NCBI RefSeq assembly: GCF_000348945.1
Contig: NZ_AOCK01000003.1
Span: 1-64,000 of the forward strand
Length of the DNA: 64,000 nt
Origin: Paeniglutamicibacter gangotriensis Lz1y
GTDB lineage: Bacteria > Actinomycetota > Actinomycetes > Actinomycetales > Micrococcaceae
Direction of reading: 5' to 3'
The translations under genes and the position numbers were made by a program. Position 1 is the stretch's first letter, and each line of letters begins with the position of its first letter. The notes beneath the pieces are model-generated. The model was given only the letters and a program-made list of their open reading frames with translations, did not search any database and was not told the origin of the DNA. Positions 1,736 through 13,902 of this stretch are shown here, piece after piece.

Positions 1736-2359
1736 ATGAATCTGGTGAAGTCGAAGCAACGTGTTGAAGACCATGGTGAGGTATTTACGCCGGCTTGGTT
1801 GGTCGAGGCGATGCTTGATCTGGTGAAGGACGAAACCGAGCGCATCGACTCCCGATTCCTCGAGCCGGCTTGCGGGTCAGGAAATTTTATTGTGCGCGTG
1901 CTTCGGCGCAAGCTCGCCGCCGTCGAGATTAAGTACGGCAAGTCTGCCTTCGAGAAGCGCCATTACGCCCTGTACGGCCTCATGTGCATCTACGGTATCG
2001 AGTTACTCCCTGACAATGTCGCCGAGTGCCGTGAGAATATGCTGGAGATCTTCGATGATTTCCTCGCGCTCACGGAGGACGACGAATTCCACCGAGCCGG
2101 GGCATATGTGCTGAGCCAGAACATCGTTCATGGGGATGCCATGACGATGCTAACCGACGATGGCACGGCCATCAGTTTCCCGGAGTGGGGTTACCTCGGG
2201 AAGGGCAAGTTCCAGCGTCGAGACTTCCGCTACGACACCCTCACGCAGATGAGCGCCTTCGGTGGGCAAGACACCCTCTTTGCGGACCTCGGGAGTCACG
2301 ATGTCTTTACCCCGACCAAAAGCTACTTGGCCATGAGTGTTGGAGAGCTGGCGTCATGA
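1736..2359 (+). CDS. Short DNA methyltransferase-fold protein lacking NPPY (RM-like operon, gene 1)
   Basis: The product has 207 residues. It carries the pre-motif 'GEVFTP' (residues about 14-19) and a canonical SAM-binding motif I 'FLEPACGSGNF' (about 42-52). 'YGIELLPDNV' and 'NIVHGDAMTM' follow, the usual run-up to catalytic motif IV. The NPPY catalytic motif itself is absent, and the reading frame ends by overlapping the next gene (ATGA, 2356-2359). It is therefore either a SAM-binding partner for the full methylase downstream or a catalytically incomplete paralogue. The ORF is intact with no visible frameshift, and I have the impression that this short form recurs in other genomes, so I treat it as a real gene. 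It is part of a tightly overlapped three-gene operon. Confidence 0.75.
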   Translation: MNLVKSKQRVEDHGEVFTPAWLVEAMLDLVKDETERIDSRFLEPACGSGNFIVRVLRRKLAAVEIKYGKSAFEKRHYALYGLMCIYGIELLPDNVAECRENMLEIFDDFLALTEDDEFHRAGAYVLSQNIVHGDAMTMLTDDGTAISFPEWGYLGKGKFQRRDFRYDTLTQMSAFGGQDTLFADLGSHDVFTPTKSYLAMSVGELAS

Positions 2360-4020
2360 CCGCCCATGCCAATTTCTCGCTCCGCGGCCGCAACCCCGAC
2401 GTGCTCTCATGCATCGCTAACCTCTCTAATGATGAGGTCTTCACTCCTCCCGAGTTTGCCAACCTCATGCTCGACAACTTGACCCAGGCGTGGGCCGAAG
2501 CTCACGATGGGGAGAACATTTGGTCGAACCCTGCCGTACGGTTCCTCGACCCATTCACCAAGTCAGGTGTGTTCCTGCGGGAGATTACGAGTCGATTGAC
2601 CGAAGGGCTCACTGAGATGATGCCTGACTTGCAGTCCCGTGTCGATCACATCCTCACGAAGCAGGTCTTCGGCATTGCCATCACCCGCCTGACAAGCCTG
2701 ATGGCACGCCGCAGCGTCTATTGCTCAAAGGTGGCCAACGGATCGCGCTCGATCACCGCGGCGTTCGACAACGCGAACGGAAACGTGTGGTTTGAACGCC
2801 TTGAACACACTTGGGAAGGCGGCACCGAATGGGTTCACACAGCTGACCCAGGCGGTAGGCCGATAAAAAAATTCACCAACGGACGCTGCAAGTTCTGCGG
2901 CGCTTCCCAACTAGTGACGGACCGCGGCGCAGAGCTGGAAACCCATGCATACGCCTTCATTCACACACACGATATCAAGGCTCGGCTCTCCGAGTTGTTT
3001 GGAGAAGACATGCAATTTGATGTGATTATCGGGAACCCTCCGTATCAGATTAAAGGCGGGGGCGGCGGTTCCAACGATTCGCCGATCTATAACCTCTTCG
3101 TCAAACAGGCCATTCATCTACAGCCGCGATTCCTCAGCATGGTCATCCAATCCCGCTGGATGGCTGGAGGCAGAGGCTTGAGCGAGTTCCGGGCGGAGTT
3201 TCTGGCTGATTCACACATTCGTACGCTCGTAGACTACGAAAACGCGAAAGATGCTTTTCCCACGGTCGGCATTGGCGGTGGTATCTGCTATTTTCTATGG
3301 GATCGCGACAACCCAGGACTGTGCGAAAGCGTGTATCACCGCAATGACGTGAGCATCGGGCCCTACCCTCGTCGTCTTGATGAGTTCGACGTTTTCGTGC
3401 GGGACAAGCGGGCCGTCGATATCCTTCATAAGGTACTGGCGTTAGGCGAAAGTTCATTTGAGAAACTCGTGAGCGGTGACACGCCATTCGGGCTGGCAAC
3501 AAACTTCAAGGAATACCACAGGGATGCGAGCCCGAAATCTGATCAGATACTTCTCTACGCCAACCTCGGCACCACTCGGGTTCGGGGTGCCATAGACCGC
3601 AATGTGATCAGGAAGAACACCCATCTGATCGACGCATGGAAACTCTTCCTTCCCGTTGCTGGATCAGGCCGTGAGCGTGAACGGAGTGGCGTAGACGTAG
3701 TCCTCAGTCCACCAATCGTTGGAGAACCCCAATCTGCCTGCACGCAGACGTACTTGGTGGCCGGCCCTTTAAGTTCAAAGAACGAGGCACAGAGCATCGA
3801 TTCGTACCTGCGAACACGACTTATTCGGTTCCTCATTTCCCTTCGAAAACCAGCACAGCACGTCTTCCGGGGCATGTACCGATGGGTTCCCCAGCAACCT
3901 TGGGACCGCACGTGGACTGATGCTGCCCTCTATGAGAAGTACGGCATCACCGAGGATGAGGTCGCCTTTATCGAGTCGATGATTCGTCCCATGAATGCGA
4001 CCACAACGGCAGCTGACTGA
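2356..4020 (+). CDS. Eco57I-type N6-adenine DNA methyltransferase (RM-like operon, gene 2)
   Basis: The 554-residue product has an 'FTP' element at about residue 29, a modified motif I 'DPFTKSG' starting at Asp65 (usual form DPxxGSG), and catalytic motif IV 'GNPPY' with Asn227. The target is therefore probably adenine N6. A 'CKFCG' element lies between motif I and NPPY and could be half of a zinc site. The C-terminal half probably recognises DNA. I chose the ATG at 2356 because it overlaps the stop of gene 1 (ATGA). The open frame extends further upstream, but only as an overlap with gene 1. The stop overlaps the start of gene 3 by one base (TGATG), so the operon is translationally coupled. 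Confidence 0.85.
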   Translation: MTAHANFSLRGRNPDVLSCIANLSNDEVFTPPEFANLMLDNLTQAWAEAHDGENIWSNPAVRFLDPFTKSGVFLREITSRLTEGLTEMMPDLQSRVDHILTKQVFGIAITRLTSLMARRSVYCSKVANGSRSITAAFDNANGNVWFERLEHTWEGGTEWVHTADPGGRPIKKFTNGRCKFCGASQLVTDRGAELETHAYAFIHTHDIKARLSELFGEDMQFDVIIGNPPYQIKGGGGGSNDSPIYNLFVKQAIHLQPRFLSMVIQSRWMAGGRGLSEFRAEFLADSHIRTLVDYENAKDAFPTVGIGGGICYFLWDRDNPGLCESVYHRNDVSIGPYPRRLDEFDVFVRDKRAVDILHKVLALGESSFEKLVSGDTPFGLATNFKEYHRDASPKSDQILLYANLGTTRVRGAIDRNVIRKNTHLIDAWKLFLPVAGSGRERERSGVDVVLSPPIVGEPQSACTQTYLVAGPLSSKNEAQSIDSYLRTRLIRFLISLRKPAQHVFRGMYRWVPQQPWDRTWTDAALYEKYGITEDEVAFIESMIRPMNATTTAAD

Positions 4021-6572
4021 TGGGAAAGTCCATCGAGGAACTTCTACCACCGAAACCTGATGCTCGACTGCGGATCTACGCTTACTCCATCGACAGCCCT
4101 GCCCACGTTGGACTTGTCAAAGTGGGGCAGACCACCCGCGACGTGAAGAAGCGGATCGAGGAGCAGACCAAGACGGCTGGCATCACTCCCACGATCCTTT
4201 TAGACGTACCCGCGGAGCGGGAGGATGGCAGTTCCTTCACTGACTTCGAAGTGCGGGCGCGTCTCAAGACCAGGGGCTTAGAGAACGTCCATCTTGAGTG
4301 GATGAGGTGCTCACTCGATGACGTGAAGACGGTGATAACTGAACTGCGTACAGGGAAGAGGCTTGTCGGAACCCATCATGAGACCTTCCGTCCGCGGCGG
4401 GAGCAGGCCGAAGCCGTCAAGAAGACGCGCGACTATTTCCACTCCATCTGGCAGGAGGACATGCACGCCGTTCCGCGGTTCCTCTGGAACGCGAAGATGC
4501 GCTTTGGCAAGACCTTCACCTCCTACCAATTGGCCAAGAGCCTTGGTGCTACTCGCGTCCTTGTGGTGACCTTCAAACCCGCTGTCGAAGATGCATGGCA
4601 AACCGACCTTGAGAACCACGCCGACTTTGAAGGTTGGCAATACATGAGCAAGCAATCCGGTGTCGATCCGTCGGCGGTGGCCAAAGACCAGCCGCTTGTC
4701 TACTTCGGCTCTTTCCAAGACCTGTTGGGCCGCGACAAGGTTGGCAACATCAAGGCCAAGAACCAGTGGCTACACGAAATCAACTGGGATCTGGTTATCT
4801 TCGATGAGTACCACTTCGGCGCATGGCGCGACACCGCCAAGGAGCTTTTCGAGGGGGAGGACGATTCGCAAATTACGGCGGAAACCAAACTTGCTTACAA
4901 CCCCGAGCTGGATGCCTACAATGAAGACTTGGACGTGCTGAGCGAGCCCGAAACGGAGTTCCTTCCTATCACGACACGGGCTTACCTGTACTTGTCTGGT
5001 ACGCCCTTCAAGGCTCTAGCTACGGGCGAGTTTATTGAGGAGCAGATCTTCAACTGGACCTATACGGATGAGCAGCGGGAGAAGGCTCGTTTCGGCAGGG
5101 TTCATTCGGGCGAGTTGAACCCCTATGGGGCCTTGCCAGAGATGCGGCTGATGACCTACCAGATGCCTGATGAACTGCTGTCCATTGCCAGTATGGGCGA
5201 GTTTGATGAGTTCGATCTTAATGCTTTCTTCTCTGCCACCGGTGTCGGAAAGAGCGCTGAGTTCAAACACAAGAACGATGTTCAGAAGTGGCTCGACATC
5301 ATCCGGGGTGCCTACGCCCCAACGCAGGTCGACAACCTCAAGCAAGGCTCTCAGCGACCGCCCTTCCCATACTCGGACATACGGCTACTTCCTTACCTTC
5401 AGCATTCCTTCTGGTTCTTTCCGAATGTGGCTGCCTGCCATGCGATGTCAAACCTGCTTGCGGAACCGCAGAACGCCTTTTTCCACAAATACAGAGTGTT
5501 AACAGTTGCTGGAACGAGCGCAGGAGTCGGTTTGGAAGCCCTTCCGCCCGTGCGAGAGGCTATTGGCAGTGGGCACGGGAACGGCTCAATCACGTTGTCG
5601 TGCGGCAAGCTCACCACCGGCGTGACGGTTCCGCAATGGTCGTCGATCCTCATGCTCCGTAACCTGAAATCCCCTGAGACCTACTTCCAAGCGGCCTTCC
5701 GAGTTCAATCTCCGTGGAGCCAGAAGAATCCCAACGGCAACAACCCCAACGAAGAAGAGATATACAAACCCGTCTGCTTCGTCTTCGATTTTGCCCCGAC
5801 CCGGGCGCTGAGGCAGTTGTCGGACTACGGCGTGGGCCTCAGCCCTAGCGAGAATCCCGAGAACGCACTCGAGGAGCTAGTGTCGTTCCTTCCCGTTCTC
5901 GCCTACGACGGTTCACGCATGGTGCAGATCGATGCGGGCGGGATCCTCGATGTGGCCATGGCTGGCACGAGTGCCACCCTGCTTGCTCGCAAGTGGGAGT
6001 CGGCCATCTTGGTGAACGTAGACAACGACACTCTACGGCGCATCCTCAACAATGAGGAAGCTCTGAAAGCGGTTATGAACATCGAGGGATTTCGAGCGCT
6101 CGGAGACCACGTCATCGAGACCGTTATCAACAAGAGTGAGAAGGTCAAGGCGACAAAGAAGAGTAAGGGCGAGGATCTCACCCCTAAGGAGAAGCGGGAA
6201 ATTACTGCCGAGGAGCGGGAATACAAGTCCAAGCGCAAGCTTATCCAAGAAAAGCTAATAAAGTTCGCGACTCGTATCCCTGCCTTCATGTACCTCACGG
6301 ACTACCGGGAGAACACGCTTCAAGACGTTATTACAAAGCTGGAACCCGATGTCTTTAAGACCGTAACCGGTCTTTCGGTGGAAGATTTCCACCTGCTTGT
6401 ACGGCTCAAGGTATTTAACACTGAACACATGAACCAGGCCGTGTTCGCGTTCAGGCGCTACGAGGATGCATCGCTGTCATACACCGGCATCGAGAGCCAC
6501 GAAGGCCTAACACGGTATGGCCTATATGACACCGTAGTCGCAAGGGAAGTACTGGTGGCTCCGGCTTCCTAA
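4020..6572 (+). CDS. GIY-YIG nuclease fused to SF2 helicase (RM-like operon, gene 3)
   Basis: The 850-residue product starts with a GIY-YIG-like domain (about residues 17-110, 'IYAYSID...VKVGQTTRDVKKRI'). A superfamily 2 helicase/translocase follows, with Walker A 'AKMRFGKT' (158-165), Walker B 'DEYH' (262-265), motif III 'LSGTPF' (from 325), 'CGKLTTGVTV' (from 528) and a motif-VI-like 'AAFRVQSPW' (from 558). The architecture parallels restriction subunits that translocate and cut, with GIY-YIG replacing the usual PD-(D/E)xK domain. A lysine-rich helical stretch lies at about 695-740. The overlap with the adenine methylase gene suggests one restriction-modification complex. The fold calls are firm; the biological role is inferred. 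Confidence 0.8.
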   Translation: MGKSIEELLPPKPDARLRIYAYSIDSPAHVGLVKVGQTTRDVKKRIEEQTKTAGITPTILLDVPAEREDGSSFTDFEVRARLKTRGLENVHLEWMRCSLDDVKTVITELRTGKRLVGTHHETFRPRREQAEAVKKTRDYFHSIWQEDMHAVPRFLWNAKMRFGKTFTSYQLAKSLGATRVLVVTFKPAVEDAWQTDLENHADFEGWQYMSKQSGVDPSAVAKDQPLVYFGSFQDLLGRDKVGNIKAKNQWLHEINWDLVIFDEYHFGAWRDTAKELFEGEDDSQITAETKLAYNPELDAYNEDLDVLSEPETEFLPITTRAYLYLSGTPFKALATGEFIEEQIFNWTYTDEQREKARFGRVHSGELNPYGALPEMRLMTYQMPDELLSIASMGEFDEFDLNAFFSATGVGKSAEFKHKNDVQKWLDIIRGAYAPTQVDNLKQGSQRPPFPYSDIRLLPYLQHSFWFFPNVAACHAMSNLLAEPQNAFFHKYRVLTVAGTSAGVGLEALPPVREAIGSGHGNGSITLSCGKLTTGVTVPQWSSILMLRNLKSPETYFQAAFRVQSPWSQKNPNGNNPNEEEIYKPVCFVFDFAPTRALRQLSDYGVGLSPSENPENALEELVSFLPVLAYDGSRMVQIDAGGILDVAMAGTSATLLARKWESAILVNVDNDTLRRILNNEEALKAVMNIEGFRALGDHVIETVINKSEKVKATKKSKGEDLTPKEKREITAEEREYKSKRKLIQEKLIKFATRIPAFMYLTDYRENTLQDVITKLEPDVFKTVTGLSVEDFHLLVRLKVFNTEHMNQAVFAFRRYEDASLSYTGIESHEGLTRYGLYDTVVAREVLVAPAS

Positions 6573-7240: not shown

Positions 7241-9355
7241 ATGAAGGCAACTGAGGCATCGCTCCTGCAATTCTTGAAGAAATCGCCGCAGTTCGTCATC
7301 CCGATCTATCAACGCACCTACAGCTGGACCGAAAAGGAGTGCGACCAACTCTGGTCCGACGTGATCCGTGCCGGCGAAAACGACGACGCGAACGCGCACT
7401 TCGTCGGCTCGGTGGTCTACGTCGAGAAGGGGATCTACCAGGTATCCAGCCAATCCCCGCTCCTGGTCATCGACGGCCAGCAGCGCCTGACCACCGTGAC
7501 GCTTCTACTCGAGGCGCTCTCACGCCACCTGGGTGACCGCGAACCGGTTGAAGGCTTCTCGGCGAAGAAGCTGCGCAGCTACTACCTGCTCAATCCCCTG
7601 GAAGACGGAGACAAGGCGTTCAAGCTTCTTCTGACGCAGACAGACCGGGAAACCCTGATTAACCTCGTGCAGCAACGCCCGCTTCCGCGGGAACACTCCG
7701 TGCGTGTCCAACAGAACTTCGAGTTTTTCGACCAAAAGGTGCGCCGCCTCGGATCGAACCTGGAACTCTTGTGCCGGGGCCTGGGCAAACTGATGATTGT
7801 CGACGTTGCGCTGAACCGCGAACAGGACAACCCGCAGCTGATTTTCGAGAGCATGAACTCCACCGGCCGCGAACTCAGCCAGGCAGACCTGATCCGCAAC
7901 TACGTGCTGATGGGGCTGGAACCTGAACACCAGACGGAACTGTATGAACTGCACTGGCGACCCATGGAGCTCGAGTTCGGCCAGGAAAGCTACGGGTCGT
8001 ACTTCGACGCCTTCATGCGGCACTACCTCACCGTCAAGACCGGGGACATCCCGAATGTCCGCGCCGTGTACGAGGCGTTCAAGGCCCATGCGAGCCGGCC
8101 CGAGGTCGCGGAAGCCGGTGTGGACGAGCTGGTCAAGGACGTCCAGCTCTACGCGGGATACTACTGCTCCATGGCCCTGGGCCGGGAACCCGACCCCGCG
8201 CTGAAGGATTCCTTCCAGGACCTGCGCGACCTGCGCGTGGATGTCGCCTATCCCCTGCTCCTTGAGCTGTACCACGACTATGCCAATGCAACGCTGCCGC
8301 GGGAGGATTTCCTGCGAGCCCTGCAGCTCATCGAGTCCTACGTCTTCCGGCGCGCCATCTGCGCCATCCCAACCAATTCGCTGAACAAGACCTTCGCGAC
8401 GCTCGGCCGCAGCCTGAAGAAGGACCGGTACCTCGAAAGCCTGGAGGCGAATTTCCTGCTGCTGCCCTCCTACCGGCGCTTCCCCAACGACGAAGAATTC
8501 CGCCGTGAACTTGAAACACGCGACATGTACAACCTCCCCCGCCGCAGCTTCTGGTTGCGCAGGCTGGAAAACCACGGCCGCAAGGAACGGGTGTTCGTCG
8601 ATGAATACACCATCGAGCACATCATGCCCCAAAATCCCACCGTGCCGGAGGAGTGGAAGCGCGAGCTGGGCCCGGAATGGGAACGCATCCACGAAGCGAA
8701 GCTGCACACCCTCGGGAACCTGACCCTCACCGGATACAACAGCGAATACAGCGACCGGCCGTTCCGGCAGAAGCGCGACATGCCAGGCGGGTTCCGCGAG
8801 AGCCCGCTCCACCTGAACCGCGGCATCGGCGCCGTGGAGCAGTGGAGCGAGGACCAGATCGAAGCCAGAGCGGCCGCCCTGTCAAAAACCGCGATCACGG
8901 TATGGCAACGCCCCGACGTCGAGAAAAGCGTGCTCACCGCCTACGGCGCCAAGCCCAGGGGCGACGCCCGGCCTGAATATGGCCTCGAGGACCACCCACA
9001 CCTCTCCGCGGGCCGTCCCATGCGCCGCCTCTTCGAGGCACTGCGCCTCGAATTGCTCGCGCTCGACCCCAACATCGGCGAAGAGATCCTGAAGCTCTAC
9101 ATCGCCTACAAGGCCGAAACCAACGTGGTCGACATCGTCCCCCAGGCTACCCGGCTGCGACTGTCCCTGAACATGCCCTTCCCCGAACTCCTCGACCCCA
9201 AAGGCGTGGCCAAGGATGTGACGAACCTGGGCCGGTGGGGAAACGGCGATGTGGAAGTCGGCCTGTCCACCGTGGGAGAGATCCCCTATGTTCTGGGGCT
9301 AGTGCGGCAATCCCTGGAACGACAGCTCAGCAACGGGACCTCCGCCGCCGAGTAA
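7241..9355 (+). CDS. GmrSD-type type IV restriction enzyme (DUF262-DUF1524)
   Basis: This 704-residue protein has an N-terminal DUF262 domain with 'IPIYQRTYSW' (about 20-29), 'IDGQQRLTT' (77-85) and 'FESMNSTGRELSQADLIRN' (about 203-221). A C-terminal DUF1524 HNH-type nuclease domain has 'IEHIMPQ' (from 458) and 'LGNLTLTGYN' (about 491-500). In the family, DUF262 is the NTP-dependent half and DUF1524 cleaves modified phage DNA, for example glucosylated hydroxymethylcytosine. Single-chain fusions of the two are common. The ATG at 7241 has only a weak GGGA ribosome site. It stands alone between the RM-like operon and the helicase-nuclease gene, and the whole stretch reads as a defence island. 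The substrate is unknown. Confidence 0.85.
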   Translation: MKATEASLLQFLKKSPQFVIPIYQRTYSWTEKECDQLWSDVIRAGENDDANAHFVGSVVYVEKGIYQVSSQSPLLVIDGQQRLTTVTLLLEALSRHLGDREPVEGFSAKKLRSYYLLNPLEDGDKAFKLLLTQTDRETLINLVQQRPLPREHSVRVQQNFEFFDQKVRRLGSNLELLCRGLGKLMIVDVALNREQDNPQLIFESMNSTGRELSQADLIRNYVLMGLEPEHQTELYELHWRPMELEFGQESYGSYFDAFMRHYLTVKTGDIPNVRAVYEAFKAHASRPEVAEAGVDELVKDVQLYAGYYCSMALGREPDPALKDSFQDLRDLRVDVAYPLLLELYHDYANATLPREDFLRALQLIESYVFRRAICAIPTNSLNKTFATLGRSLKKDRYLESLEANFLLLPSYRRFPNDEEFRRELETRDMYNLPRRSFWLRRLENHGRKERVFVDEYTIEHIMPQNPTVPEEWKRELGPEWERIHEAKLHTLGNLTLTGYNSEYSDRPFRQKRDMPGGFRESPLHLNRGIGAVEQWSEDQIEARAAALSKTAITVWQRPDVEKSVLTAYGAKPRGDARPEYGLEDHPHLSAGRPMRRLFEALRLELLALDPNIGEEILKLYIAYKAETNVVDIVPQATRLRLSLNMPFPELLDPKGVAKDVTNLGRWGNGDVEVGLSTVGEIPYVLGLVRQSLERQLSNGTSAAE

Positions 9356-9756
9356 CTGAACGGGAACACCGATATTCCAAGCGACTGACCGCTAGATTTC
9401 CATGCAGCATCCTCGGACCGGCGTATCCAAGGCCGGCACGGCGAGACCGCACGGGATCCGCGTTGGTCAGCCGCCAGGCCCACTTCGAGGTGCACGGCGA
9501 CGCCCTTACCAGAGCGTTTCAGGATCGATGCGGCGACAAGCATTGATGTACGCCGCCGGTCAGGGTACTCCTGACTCCGGTTAGTTTGAACAGCAGGGAC
9601 GGTGCCACCAGTTTATTCATCGACTCAACTTTGGCTATCCCAGCGCGATCAACGTGTACTTTCGCTTCAGGACATGCTTTTCAGGATCAAGATGCTTCAG
9701 AGTATTTTGGGAGGATTCGTTAAGCAATTTCCGCCACCTATCGAAAAAGTTTGGAT
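9356..9756 (+). other. Intergenic, no gene seen
   Basis: This 400-bp stretch lies between the GmrSD-type gene and the helicase-nuclease gene. Short open frames here do not resemble proteins, and I saw no strong hairpin or promoter. Confidence 0.5.
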
Positions 9757-12700
9757 ATGAGTATGCAGGATTCTGTTTCCAGGGCCATTACTACAGCGTC
9801 TAATGAGTGGCGCACCTCCCTGATCGACGTGGGTGGAAATAACCGACTCCTGTACTTCCGTCCAAATGCGTCGACCATACAGCTTGACGCAATGCCTGAA
9901 TCTGCTGCCACCAAGCTCTTCTCCGGCAAAACGGTTCGGCTCAACGAACTCTTCGTGAATGCCGACGCTCTCCGAAAGGCGCAACGGGCCTGCACTGCGC
10001 TTGCCCGAAAGCAGCGCGAGGCCCAGGAAGAATTCGGGGTTCCCGTGGCATTCATGGCCGTGGGGACCGCCACATGGGATCCGACGGCAAGCGAAGCTAT
10101 CATCGCAGCAGAAGCCGACCAAGTAGCAGATCCGGAAGAGGGAAACGCAAAGAAGCGAAACTACACGCTTCCCTCCGCCCCGGTACTTCTGCGCGCGCTC
10201 GAACTTTCACGCAAGAGAGGCGCCCAAGACTCATGGGAACTGCGTCTTGATGAAGATTTCTCACTGAATAGCGTGCTCGTACACGTCATGAATGCGGACC
10301 GCTTTCGCCTGGACGAAGAAGCAATCCTTGACCTCGACAACGGATCCCCACAGAGTGTGAATGAAATGCTTAAGGCGGTAGAAGCCGCGTGCAGGGATGT
10401 TGTTGATTTCAGAATCGAGTCCCATCACTACTTGGGCGCATTTACCTACCTGAAGCAGCCCATGGTCGCTGACATCGACAACCTTGAGGCTCTCGCATCG
10501 TCCGATCTCGTTTCAGCCCTGGCCGGAGATTCCGCTGCAGCTTCCCGAATCAGGGGCCAAAAGCTGGATCTTCGCGAGTCGGGACCTGACTACTCCCCGG
10601 TCGATGCCGAATTTCTTATTCTCGATGCAGACTCCAGCCAGAGCTATGTGATCAACGCTGCGGTAGGCGGCAGCAGCCTGGTAGTCCAGGGACCCCCTGG
10701 AACAGGGAAAAGCCAAACAATCGCCAACACCATTGCATCGTTGGTGGCCGCAGACAAGAAAGTGCTCTTCGTTGCCCAGAAGCGGGCGGCAATTACCGCT
10801 GTCTTGGACAGGCTTAAGGGCGCGCACCTCGAGCATTTGGTGCTCGATCTATTTGCAGCTTCCTCGTCCCGACGCTTTGTCGCAGATGAGCTCCGAAATG
10901 TTCTGGAGTTGCAACAGAACACGGGTGTACCCGACGTAGCCGCCCTGGAATTCACCATGACGCAGTCTCGCGACCGCCTCGTGAGCCACAATGACGCACT
11001 TTCCAAGCCCACCCGAGGGTGGGGCGTTTCCGTTTCGTGGTTGCGTTCCCAACTTCCCGGCATCCCGCCCACTGCCAGGAGCCAGATCCGACTGCCAGCG
11101 ACAACGTTCACCACATGGACAGCATCAAGCCTGACAGAATTTGAAGCGGCTCTCGATAATCTGTTGGCGCTCGGAGCCCTTGAACCGCAGTGGCACCTGT
11201 CACCGGGCTGGAATCCGCAGGCCGTGAACACCCCTGAGGCCGTTAGCAACGGAACCGATGTTGCTCGGAACATGTCCACAGCCGAAGTCCCCGCTCTCCT
11301 CGCGTCACTGACAAAAACCTGTGCTGACATGCGGGTTCCGACCCCGTCCAAATGGCCCGAAATCGATGCCCTGGTTTCACGGATCGAAGAGCTGGCTGCT
11401 GTCCAAAATGCCGTTCCGGAAGCGCTCTCCTTGGAACGCACCAGCGACGAACTTCACGGTCTGCTGTGTGCCACCAACAGGGCGTTCAAGAAGGCGTCCG
11501 CGCAACGATTTAGTTGGAAGGAACGACGCCAGTTCAGCAAACAAGCTGCAGCGTTGAACCCGGCCCTCGACCGTGCCGCGATTCACCAATGGATTCTTCG
11601 GGCAGTCCACATTCGTGACACGTGGACCGGCCACGGCGTAGCTCAAGCAACACCTGACCATCTCCTTTTTGTGGACGCTGCAAAGTCGCTCCGGGGCAGG
11701 CTCGCCCGGCTTCAGGCAGCACTTCAGCACATCGATTTCGATGAGATGCTCCTTGCTGACCTGGCACCGTTCCTGCAGTCGCTTGCAAATCACCCGGCGC
11801 GCATGAATTTCCCCCGCGCGTTCGATCTCGAAGCCCGGCTTTCACAGGCGGGGCTGGGGACTGTTGTCGGGAGCATTTGTGCCGACATGGCGCAACACGG
11901 ACACCTGGGGGGCCGGCCCTCTGAGGTCCTGCGCTGGGTCGTGTACTCTTCGATTCTCGAAGATGCGGAAATGACCGACCCCGGGCTCGCTGGTGTCTCT
12001 GGCAGCGAGCTGGAGTCAGCGAGAAGAAAATTCATTCGCTCCGACATGGACCACATGGCTGCAAATTCTGCCCGCATTCGGCGCCTCGTCGCGGAGCGCC
12101 TAAAGATTGCCCTGGATCATCACCCAGAGGAACACGCCACACTCAAGACGGAACTGACGAAAAAAAGGAACTTTCGTTCCGTCCGAACGTTCTTTAGCGA
12201 GGCACCCACCGTCATCCGTGCAGCCAAGCCCGTATGGGCGATGAGCCCGCTGCAGGTTTCGAGGCTCCTGCCCGCTGAGCAGTGTTTTGATGTCGTGATT
12301 TTCGACGAGGCCAGCCAGATCAAGCCCTCCGACGCGATCCCTGCTCTGCTGCGCGCCAACCAAGCCATCGTTGCCGGTGACAGTCGACAGCTTCCCCCCA
12401 CCGAGTTCTTCAGCAAGGTTCTTGAAGACCTGCCGGAATTGCCAAATGGAAACGGCCCAGATGAATCAGGCCCGGAGGAAGACGGCGCTCTGAATGCCGT
12501 TGAAGAACCGGCGCTGAAGCCCAACAGACCAACGGGTTCCCTCACGAAGGACGCCGAGAGCATCCTTTTCGCCATGGAGCGGCTCTTGGTGGGCCAGTCG
12601 AGGAGTCTTCTGTGGCACTATCGTTCCCGGGACGAAAGGCTGATCGCGGTTTCCAACGCGCACGTCTATAGCGGTTCGCTCACGACCTTTCCGGCTGCGG

Positions 12701-13902
12701 ACGCACTTGATGCCCTCCGGCACGTTGCTGTCGAGCCCAGTGAGGGCATTGGCCAAACGACCAACAGTCCTGTTGCGGAAGTTGAAAAAGTCGTTCAGTT
12801 GGTCAAGGAGCACGTGCGAGAGCGTCCCACGGAATCACTGGGCGTGATCGCGTTCGGTATCAAGCACCAGAACCGCATCGAGATGGCCCTCGATCGTGCC
12901 CGGGTTCAGGATCCTGAATTTGAAGCAGCCCTCTCTGGCCACGATGAGACTTTCTTTGTCAAGAGCATTGAAAGGGTCCAGGGCGATGAAAGGGACGCCA
13001 TCATTCTCACCGTGGGATACGGCAAAGGCATGGATGGAAAAATGCGGTACTTGTGGGGTCCGCTCCTTAAGGAAGGAGGAGAACGCCGCCTCAATGTGGC
13101 AATCAGCCGTGCCAGGCGCCGCATGACTCTCGTGTCCAGCTTTGCCCTGGACGACATCGCCGAGGACGCGCATGCTTCTGCAGGCTTCAAGCTCATGTAC
13201 CGCTTCCTGCGCTTTGTCTCTTCCGGAGGGAAGGAACTCCATGGCGGACCGGATAACACCATGCCGCTGAATCCCTTCGAAATTGATGTCCGGGATCGGC
13301 TCACGGAGGCAGGCCTCCAGCTTGATGCCCAAGTAGGCGTGGGAGCCTATCGGATTGATTTTGCAGTTCGCCACCCCACATTTCCTGGTCGACACATTCT
13401 GGCTATCGAGGCAGATGGCGCTTCGTACCATTCGGGGCACGTTGCCCGTGAACGAGACCGCCTGCGACAGGATCTCCTGGAACGGCGAGGTTGGACCTTC
13501 CATCGCATCTGGAGCACCGACTGGTTCAATAATGCCGAAGCCGAGGTTCGAAAGGTCCAGGCGGCGGTCACGGCCGCCCTTGCCCATACACAACCTGACA
13601 TAAAGGTTTCGATAAGCACCCCAGACCCATCGAACGTTTCTGGGAAAACCTGGAGGGTCATCGAGCAGTCGAGGACCAAGCCAAAACCACATTTCACACC
13701 CGGAAATCCGATACGAACCTATCCGTCCGGCGTGTTGCTAGACCTCGTGATGCATATCCGAAGCGACGGAAAAATCCGGAGTGCAGACGATGAGCTTCTG
13801 GCAACCATGAAAGAACTCGGTTTCTCCTCCCGCGGCCGTAATATCGTCGCTGCCATCGAAGGAGCACAACGAAACGCCGACCTTCTGGAAAACCGACCAT
13901 AG
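9757..13902 (+). CDS. SF1 helicase with C-terminal Vsr/MTES_1575-like nuclease
   Basis: The product has 1,381 residues. A DUF4011-like N-terminus ('EWRTSLIDVGGNNRLLYF') precedes an SF1 helicase core. The core has Walker A 'GPPGTGKS' (312-319), Walker B 'DEAS' (from 850), 'VAGDSRQLPP' (about 871-880) and a late motif 'VAISRARRR' (from 1114). A PD-(D/E)xK-like nuclease follows: 'RIDFAV' with Asp1201, 'AIEADG' with Glu1218, then 'RDRLRQDLLERRGW' and 'RIWSTDW', as in very-short-patch or MTES_1575 restriction endonucleases. The last 60 residues may be a small DNA-binding tail. Starts at TTG 9751, ATG 9757 and ATG 9763 are all possible. Similar helicase-nuclease fusions are typical of defence islands. 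No partner gene is adjacent. Confidence 0.85.
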   Translation: MSMQDSVSRAITTASNEWRTSLIDVGGNNRLLYFRPNASTIQLDAMPESAATKLFSGKTVRLNELFVNADALRKAQRACTALARKQREAQEEFGVPVAFMAVGTATWDPTASEAIIAAEADQVADPEEGNAKKRNYTLPSAPVLLRALELSRKRGAQDSWELRLDEDFSLNSVLVHVMNADRFRLDEEAILDLDNGSPQSVNEMLKAVEAACRDVVDFRIESHHYLGAFTYLKQPMVADIDNLEALASSDLVSALAGDSAAASRIRGQKLDLRESGPDYSPVDAEFLILDADSSQSYVINAAVGGSSLVVQGPPGTGKSQTIANTIASLVAADKKVLFVAQKRAAITAVLDRLKGAHLEHLVLDLFAASSSRRFVADELRNVLELQQNTGVPDVAALEFTMTQSRDRLVSHNDALSKPTRGWGVSVSWLRSQLPGIPPTARSQIRLPATTFTTWTASSLTEFEAALDNLLALGALEPQWHLSPGWNPQAVNTPEAVSNGTDVARNMSTAEVPALLASLTKTCADMRVPTPSKWPEIDALVSRIEELAAVQNAVPEALSLERTSDELHGLLCATNRAFKKASAQRFSWKERRQFSKQAAALNPALDRAAIHQWILRAVHIRDTWTGHGVAQATPDHLLFVDAAKSLRGRLARLQAALQHIDFDEMLLADLAPFLQSLANHPARMNFPRAFDLEARLSQAGLGTVVGSICADMAQHGHLGGRPSEVLRWVVYSSILEDAEMTDPGLAGVSGSELESARRKFIRSDMDHMAANSARIRRLVAERLKIALDHHPEEHATLKTELTKKRNFRSVRTFFSEAPTVIRAAKPVWAMSPLQVSRLLPAEQCFDVVIFDEASQIKPSDAIPALLRANQAIVAGDSRQLPPTEFFSKVLEDLPELPNGNGPDESGPEEDGALNAVEEPALKPNRPTGSLTKDAESILFAMERLLVGQSRSLLWHYRSRDERLIAVSNAHVYSGSLTTFPAADALDALRHVAVEPSEGIGQTTNSPVAEVEKVVQLVKEHVRERPTESLGVIAFGIKHQNRIEMALDRARVQDPEFEAALSGHDETFFVKSIERVQGDERDAIILTVGYGKGMDGKMRYLWGPLLKEGGERRLNVAISRARRRMTLVSSFALDDIAEDAHASAGFKLMYRFLRFVSSGGKELHGGPDNTMPLNPFEIDVRDRLTEAGLQLDAQVGVGAYRIDFAVRHPTFPGRHILAIEADGASYHSGHVARERDRLRQDLLERRGWTFHRIWSTDWFNNAEAEVRKVQAAVTAALAHTQPDIKVSISTPDPSNVSGKTWRVIEQSRTKPKPHFTPGNPIRTYPSGVLLDLVMHIRSDGKIRSADDELLATMKELGFSSRGRNIVAAIEGAQRNADLLENRP

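Follow-up and report, generated by a model that had tools for sequence, protein, structure and literature searches.

A three-gene restriction-modification-like operon in Paeniglutamicibacter gangotriensis with a probable split adenine methylase, an apparently SAM-dead copy of its SAM-binding half and a GIY-YIG nuclease-motor protein

The window analyzed here is a stretch of 64,000 nucleotides from Paeniglutamicibacter gangotriensis Lz1y (contig NZ_AOCK01000003.1) that starts at the contig's first base. Close to this end, three tandem genes on the + strand, here called g1, g2, and g3, occupy positions 1736-6572. g1 (1736..2359, 207 amino acids [aa]) apparently encodes the S-adenosylmethionine (SAM)-binding half of an N6-adenine methyltransferase without the catalytic NPPY motif. 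g2 (2356..4020, 554 aa) encodes an Eco57I-type methylase protein composed of an N-terminal (g2N) and a C-terminal (g2C) part, and g3 (4020..6572, 850 aa) encodes a GIY-YIG nuclease domain fused to a superfamily 2 (SF2) helicase-like motor. Neighboring genes overlap by a few bases (ATGA for g1/g2 and TGATG for g2/g3). The start of g2 was taken at ATG 2356; a longer open reading frame (ORF) from GTG 2185 is a mechanical maximum only. An earlier note, made from the letters of this DNA, had described three overlapping genes forming a restriction-modification (RM)-like operon; ORF positions and overlaps confirmed the former, and the latter is supported by the findings below.

Both g1 and g2 contain an FTP motif, as had been noted earlier, whereas the motif I ascribed to both is intact in g1 only. 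There it reads FLEPACGSGNF (1856..1888, + strand, residues 41-51), with E43, G47, and G49 invariant in 14/14 rows. Pfam N6_Mtase matched g1 at 2e-5, and the g1 profile found weak MmeI and type I M matches only (E values of 0.007 and 0.008) among solved structures. In g2N (2356..3003, + strand, about residues 1-216, delimited by the g2N profile), motif I is degenerate (FLDPFTKSGVF, 2542..2574, + strand), with a glycine replaced by Lys69 (codon 2560-2562), and the motif II acid is lost. g2C, delimited by its own profile and by the point where the natural g1 fusions of L105 and L106 start (3010..4017, + strand, from Met219), carries the NPPY motif (3034..3045, + strand, residues 227-230), which had been correctly assigned to the second gene only, and a putative target-recognition region of approximate extent (3106..3705, + strand, residues 251-450). 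In 50-residue blocks compared with the two nearest Arthrobacter relatives (loci L041 and L049), g2 residues 251-450 showed 26-56% identity and residues 1-200 showed 68-78%. g2C thus holds a fast-diverging region, which is the pattern expected of a specificity or recognition domain. No solved structure matched the g2 sequence at E values up to 1, or the g2 profile at 0.01.

The fusion of a GIY-YIG nuclease to an SF2 motor, likewise proposed earlier, held up in g3 at the sequence level. T5orf172 (4065..4355, + strand; 29.0 bits versus a cutoff of 20, 1.6e-6), which we take to belong to the GIY-YIG clan, and ResIII (28.8 bits versus a cutoff of 22.5, 1.3e-6), which marks the motor at 4377..6059 (+ strand, about residues 120-680), both scored above their Pfam cutoffs. 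A hidden Markov model search for Eco57I and GIY-YIG domains, suggested in the earlier note, returned both, Eco57I in g2 (5.6e-33) and T5orf172 in g3. At E values up to 1, Pfam matched g3 with ResIII, T5orf172, and MUG113 only, leaving the C-terminal 170 residues unmatched, and the search of g3 against solved structures gave nothing convincing (best E value, 0.075). The motor contains Walker A in NAKMRFGKT and a DEYH box. Among 107 distinct homologous GIY domains, Y20, K34, G36, and R45 were present in 107/107 and E93 in 105/107, and a Lys-(Val/Ile)-Gly stretch had invariant positions in all 107. With a profile score above the cutoff and conserved Tyr, Gly, Arg, and Glu, the domain would by its sequence count as a GIY-YIG nuclease of the T5orf172 family. 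g3 was 87% identical to the window in L049 and, measured by segments, 89-91% identical in L041. Conservation of both motor and nuclease suggests that cutting is coupled to translocation, like that of Type ISP enzymes.

For a census of relatives, profiles of g1, g2N, g2C, GIY, and helicase domains were used with score limits set by hand. They yielded 242 loci with at least one domain (L251-L260 not included), which were merged into 198 groups when a domain was identical. The order g1, g2N-g2C, GIY-helicase was found in 72/198 merged groups, from chromosomes, plasmids, and viral contigs. Recurrence of the trio in this fixed order is far beyond chance, so the objection that the gene order might not be conserved elsewhere fails. 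Among the others, 54 groups showed a g1-like domain alone, and many were partial, single, or truncated by a contig end; ten of the loci with g2N and no motor are short stretches from whole-genome searches and as such uninformative on the motor. Flanks of 1.5 kb or longer on each side were available for 86 merged g2C loci (a count that excludes 32 further loci with shorter flanks). Of these, 80 had both motor and g2N, 4 had neither (L106, L140, L204, and L205), 1 had the motor only (L179), and 1 had g2N only (L114). Locus L201 contained two more g2C copies. Interrupted copies were seen in Mycobacterium gastri (L034), where g2N continues into a truncated g3, and in Arthrobacter sp. H16F315 (L041), where g3 is spread over three frames. 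We rejected a frameshift or annotation artifact as the origin of g1: distant loci and annotated plasmids also have g1 as a gene of its own, in many cases with an identical 4-base overlap. The objection that g1 might be a frameshifted piece of a longer methylase gene in relatives thus fails for the gene itself, yet some relatives do have g1 as part of a longer methylase, fused in frame to g2C.

Motifs were counted in 100 merged loci with strong g1 (limit of 100 bits) and g2N (50 bits); weaker loci never entered, and L034, L108, and L119 were dropped because motif columns were missing. In the 97 evaluable loci of this core family, g1 always kept the motif I acid, both GxG glycines, and the motif II acid (97/97). 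The first motif I glycine was present in 0/97 g2N stretches (Lys in 94, Thr in 2, and Ala in 1), and the motif II acid was lost from 96 of them and kept in 1. NPPY was found in the best g2C reading frame of 112/116 merged loci, the remaining four being L005 (NPPD), L046 (split by a transposase), and L085 and L087 (two frames or cut). None of 122 separate g1 reading frames had an NPPY-like motif. Judged by these motifs, the core family has its SAM site on one chain and its catalytic site on another. g2N has the look of a SAM-dead g1 copy, and the lysine in it is conserved in its own right. The alternatives of a split or a duplicated methylase, raised in the earlier note, in fact both apply. Its proposal that g1 is a SAM-binding or specificity partner stands insofar as g1 has the intact SAM half; g1 is, however, not the mere partner of a complete g2, whose own SAM motif is degenerate.

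In relatives, the pieces were found in several covalent combinations. Two groups, both viral contigs (L105 and L106), encode g1-g2C in one protein, with no g2N and no detected motor; g1 is joined directly to the first g2C residues, at differing junctions, and motif I, the motif II acid, and NPPY are kept. L106 has more than 5 kb on each side without GIY or helicase domains. Elsewhere, g2N forms the end of the GIY-helicase protein: next to separate g1 and g2C genes in the order g1, g2C, GIY-helicase-g2N (three groups, L213, L217, and L218, and two more with a g1 variant) or g1, GIY-helicase-g2N, g2C (two groups, L068 and L136), and beside a g1-variant-g2C fusion (two groups, L208 and L214). GIY-helicase-g2N-g2C fusions follow g1 in four groups (L062, L064, L066, and L069) and precede it in one. 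In the Limosilactobacillus reuteri plasmid pAN417A (L256:7026-7955), an extra "restriction endonuclease" gene lies between such a fused gene and g1. Apart from L034 and L046, which are interrupted copies, and L108, L119, L124, and L226, every g2N shared a protein with the motor, with g2C, or with both. In no locus of the census or fetched later was g1 found in one protein with the motor. Since g1-g2C occurs without g2N, and g2N ends the GIY-YIG-helicase protein, the methyltransferase is most likely g1 plus g2C, with g2N going with the motor.

Structure models supported a common fold. AlphaFold2 modeled the natural L105 fusion (79 rows) with a predicted local distance difference test score (pLDDT) of 91.2 and a predicted template modeling score (pTM) of 0.89. 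Its best VIA-align match was the methylase CamA (7lt5_B; Z 24.2, root mean square deviation [rmsd] of 5.0, 417 aligned, model residues 6-497), followed by DrdV, LlaGI (5ffj_B, Z 20.5), and BrxX at Z 20-21 and by M.BseCI at Z 19.9. g2 (69 rows) was modeled with a pLDDT of 89.1 and a pTM of 0.87 and again matched CamA best (7rfk_A; Z 22.7, rmsd 4.3, 412 aligned, residues 14-531), while Foldseek ranked BrxX first. As AlphaFold2 tends to complete canonical folds, the models are support and not proof. g1+g2C and g2N+g2C are accordingly predicted to share one CamA-like fold, which places g1 and g2N, in prediction, at the same position on g2C. With motif I of the (D/E)PxxGxG type and the motif II acid in 97/97 g1 proteins, the (N/D)PP(Y/F) motif as NPPY in g2C, and a whole fold including a recognition domain in the L105 model, g1+g2C would have the features of a gamma-type N6-adenine methyltransferase. 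A domain swap in which the g1 C terminus replaces the NPPY strand was not favored: in the L105 model, strands 152-160 and 163-170 and helix 171-180 come before strand 195-198, which leads into NPPY (the topology of a complex could differ).

The complete CamA-like fold of the g2 model and its retained NPPY also fit a different view, in which g2 alone is the active methyltransferase, with the motif I lysine as another kind of SAM contact and g1 as an auxiliary, e.g., a SAM sensor, a hemimethylation reader, or a stabilizer. Lys69, kept in 94/97 loci, has not randomly decayed, and viral contigs with g1 but without g2C would suit an auxiliary as well. We nevertheless regard this as improbable, because the motif II acid lost from 96/97 g2N stretches is kept in 97/97 g1 proteins, because L105 and L106 retained g1 and lack g2N, and because in L068, L136, L208, L211, L213, L214, L215, L217, and L218 g2N sits on the motor, away from NPPY.

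If both halves fit the same body, as modeled, either g1 and g2N would exchange on it or a complex would contain two g2C bodies. The latter would be an asymmetric double methylase, in which the g1-completed body writes the mark and the g2N-completed body reads for restriction; this concerns the assembly and is compatible with g1+g2C as the methyltransferase. For the Type III enzyme EcoP15I, a dimeric Mod is reported to methylate one strand (PMC4490356). Nearly every locus has one g2C gene, however, so that the second body would have to be a second copy of the same chain, and we consider such an assembly possible but doubtful.

Type ISP enzymes such as LlaGI and LlaBIII are among the closest known systems. 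Their order of nuclease, motor, methyltransferase, and recognition domain (PMC3874165 and PMC4666363) recurs in the fused relatives L062, L064, L066, and L069, and the methyltransferase part matches LlaGI in fold (5ffj_B). Type ISP enzymes also translocate from an asymmetric site at the expense of ATP and cleave head to head. In contrast to Type ISP enzymes, which are single polypeptides with an N-terminal Mrr-family nuclease, the N terminus of g3 is T5orf172/GIY-YIG, the window has three genes, and g1 is separate even in the most extensively fused relatives; moreover, the SAM half is on a separate protein, and a SAM-dead duplicate half is in the chain. The PADLOC family PDLC03626 (REase_MTase_IIG, 1,359 positions) covers g3 (4e-29) and g2 residues 216-545 (2.8e-37) and was not among the best 25 of 38 PADLOC families matching g1. 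Fused relatives are therefore already cataloged, though as Type IIG; this family carries the IIG label yet spans an SF2 motor, and in the window nuclease (g3) and methyltransferase (g1 and g2) are not in one chain as in Type IIG enzymes. Type III Mod is a complete methylase in one chain, and its partner Res has a C-terminal PD-(D/E)XK nuclease. In the trio, by comparison, SAM and catalytic motifs are on different chains.

The PADLOC name of the fused relatives and the match of the L105 model to LlaGI would also suit an ordinary Type ISP or Type IIG enzyme in pieces, with g1 as a functionless, decaying duplicate. The chance of this appears slight: g1 kept the checked SAM residues in 97/97 loci, shares 84-86% identity with its counterparts in the Arthrobacter loci L041 and L049, and is present in the main architectures; the nuclease family also differs.

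Similar parts are known from Bacillus subtilis, where DnmA (YeeA), YeeB, and YeeC are an adenine methylase, an SF2 helicase, and a T5orf172/GIY-YIG protein of a putative operon in a horizontally acquired region (PMC9973331). Set side by side with the trio from that description, the kinds of parts are the same, but nuclease and helicase are separate there and the methylase is one MmeI-like chain, whereas in the trio a single protein combines nuclease with helicase and the methylase is divided. CamA of Clostridioides difficile, the best VIA-align match of both models, is described in PMC8187626 as an orphan methylase without a restriction endonuclease. Two-chain or active-plus-inactive methyltransferases include the split C5 enzyme M.AquI and the pairs MTA1-MTA9 and METTL3-METTL14 (PMC3404938, PMC9174199, and PMC6928010). 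Among the matches listed for open-access PubMed Central titles and abstracts, there was no split methylase with a SAM-dead twin and no g1-g2-g3 system. We know of no second dead SAM half beside the live one in M.AquI, MTA1-MTA9, or METTL3-METTL14, and none of these is, to our knowledge, tied to a restriction motor. The earlier statement that no named defense system is known with this exact layout thus calls for a qualification: fused relatives carry the PADLOC name REase_MTase_IIG, and similar parts are known from DnmA-YeeB-YeeC.

On balance, we think it fairly likely that the trio is an ATP-dependent, GIY-YIG-armed RM system with a split adenine methylase, g1+g2C, in which the SAM-dead g2N serves the restriction arm. 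Sequences and models show the split, the complementary motif loss within the core family, the reshuffling of domains among relatives, a predicted fold common to both methylase models, and conservation of the nuclease residues; from these we infer the following scheme. g1 would bind SAM and dock on g2C, which carries NPPY and the putative target-recognition region, and the resulting complex would methylate the recognition site. g2N, as a degenerate g1 copy without normal SAM binding, would occupy the same predicted place on g2C and couple recognition to g3 with its SF2 motor and GIY-YIG nuclease. At an unmethylated foreign site, the motor would then be released to translocate and cut, while a methylated host site would be spared. 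The trio is widespread in bacteria and probably has an antivirus role, and we regard it as a variant of ATP-dependent RM with a possibly new switching principle.

Several observations weigh against this interpretation. g2N+g2C was confidently modeled as a whole methyltransferase, so that g2 might by itself be an enzyme whose SAM pocket is unusual, and the models are single chains without SAM or a partner protein. Covariation (mutual information with average product correction; 82 complete loci, effective sequence number [N_eff] of 73 at 80% and 26 at 62%) was not above controls for g1-g2C: the mean Z of the top 10 pairs was 4.33 for g1-g2C, 4.17 for g2N-g2C, and 4.19 each for g1-helicase and g2N-helicase. 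L114 has g1 and g2 with no g3 within the next 2.1 kb, and L179 has g2C and a g3 remnant (residues 1-55) with g2N absent. The L105 contig extends 6 kb downstream but only 316 bases upstream of the fusion, so that a motor may lie past its end, and L107 (g1, g2C) ends ~100 bases past g2C and is uninformative on the motor. Outside the core family, complementarity fails or is blurred: g1 of distant relatives has another motif I variant (GEAP type), and the canonical glycine motif occurs in the g2N-like stretch of the viral loci L203, L204, L222, L224-L228, L230, and L238, which scored under the limits of the motif count and are perhaps methylases of another kind. In 25 merged groups a strong g1 was not accompanied by a strong g2C, and 20 of these had no NPP(Y/F/W) in neighboring frames of at least 150 aa within 2.5 kb; L108, L119, and L124 among these lone-g1 groups have a g2N piece and no motor. 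The groups with g1 and no g2C, together with the early end of the L107 contig, slightly lowered our confidence and slightly raised that in g2 alone as the enzyme. As to phage defense, DnmA-YeeB-YeeC deletions left the susceptibility of B. subtilis to three phages unchanged (PMC9973331). The same study reports that deletion of dnmA and yeeB homologs in Vibrio crassostreae increased sensitivity to some phages.

RM enzymes must choose between marking and cutting at one site. Here, the pieces involved have been separated by evolution, and since the live SAM half, the dead SAM half, and the shared body each occur in several covalent combinations, this choice becomes testable. One tentative and rather unlikely extension of the scheme is a subunit-exchange switch, in which the g2C body takes either the live g1 or the dead g2N, on itself or on the motor, and the docked half decides between methylation and hand-over to the GIY-YIG motor. 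The conserved g2N lysine would then be a switch residue that fills the empty SAM site. Phages might escape by carrying the body together with the live half, or perhaps just the latter, and so shift a complex of the host away from cutting and toward marking. Competition between g1 and g2N is an appealing but hypothetical mechanism. More generally, the g1+g2C interpretation offers a joint role for proteins whose annotations go no further than "N-6 DNA methylase," "Eco57I domain protein," and "GIY-YIG nuclease family protein." It also predicts a counterdefense function, directed against this system, for phage g1-g2C proteins and perhaps for a lone phage g1.

Some viruses carry only the two working halves, perhaps for self-protection. 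The L105 fusion lies ahead of a T7/N4-type RNA polymerase gene in a T7-like phage contig (L105:317-5205), with one short frame in between, and genes for a single-strand-binding protein and a primase are found downstream. The T7 early region carries antirestriction genes. For L106, none of four neighbors of the fusion matched PHROG, and its phage nature rests on the source collection. Fusobacterium phage FNU4 has a single g1-variant-g2C protein, and Tenacibaculum phage PTm1 (L258:4538-7436) has g2C and the g1 variant as separate genes, two genes apart; a short upstream frame in PTm1 is weakly similar to g2N (18 bits) and may be a remnant. A search of a phage collection with g3 matched five records, FNU4 and PTm1 not among them. 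Viral contigs with a lone strong g1 and no NPPY-type neighbor include L110, L126, L134, L135, and L137, while L034 and L079 are the two nonviral contigs among the 20 such groups. A lone g1 may be a remnant or the partner of a host g2C, or it may have another role; a counterdefense function of the viral ones is possible. In many of the viral loci L216-L248, g2C is matched weakly and a small g1-like protein lies next to it, and a GIY-domain match is also present in L222-L225 and L231-L234. These loci may represent a deeply branching form of this arrangement, but the g2-like protein of several retains a canonical motif I.

When one genome of each species was scanned, 58 loci with g3 relatives were found, many of them metagenome assemblies, with record titles naming many phyla. 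Where the contig extends far enough, g1 and g2 are usually upstream of g3, arranged as in the window and in many cases overlapping by equally few bases. Among plasmid records, 79 matched g3, 87 matched g2, and 75 matched g1. Of 296 Actinomycetota genomes, 20 had a g1 match at an E value of 1e-8 or better, and 11 of them (the window's own included) had one below 1e-45. Only 2/14 other genomes of the window's genus had a g3 relative, at 46% identity, which indicates a patchy distribution of the operon and probable mobility. In L002, L008, L009, L011, L013, L028, and L032, g2 and g3 are separated by other DNA. Cargo between g2 and g3 was noted in L002, L008, L009, L011, L032, and L046, where a transposase-like gene interrupts g2; going by the look of the sequences, we take this cargo to resemble a PIN-type toxin pair, RhuM-like proteins, and transposases.

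Downstream of the trio, positions 7241-9355 of the window encode a GmrSD-like protein (GmrSD_N, 7e-34; GmrSD_C, 5.6e-25; DUF5655 at the C terminus), and positions 9751-13902 encode a 1,383-aa helicase with an MTES_1575 nuclease domain, which is related to ProA/Hhe (below curated cutoffs) and to PADLOC PDC-S37. Together with the trio, these genes suggest a defense island at the contig start. None of the ten ORFs examined between 14 and 35 kb was defense-like. On the other side of the trio, the minus strand at 162-1268 encodes a divergent protein of the NA37 family (37-kDa nucleoid-associated protein; 25.1 bits versus a cutoff of 24.6).

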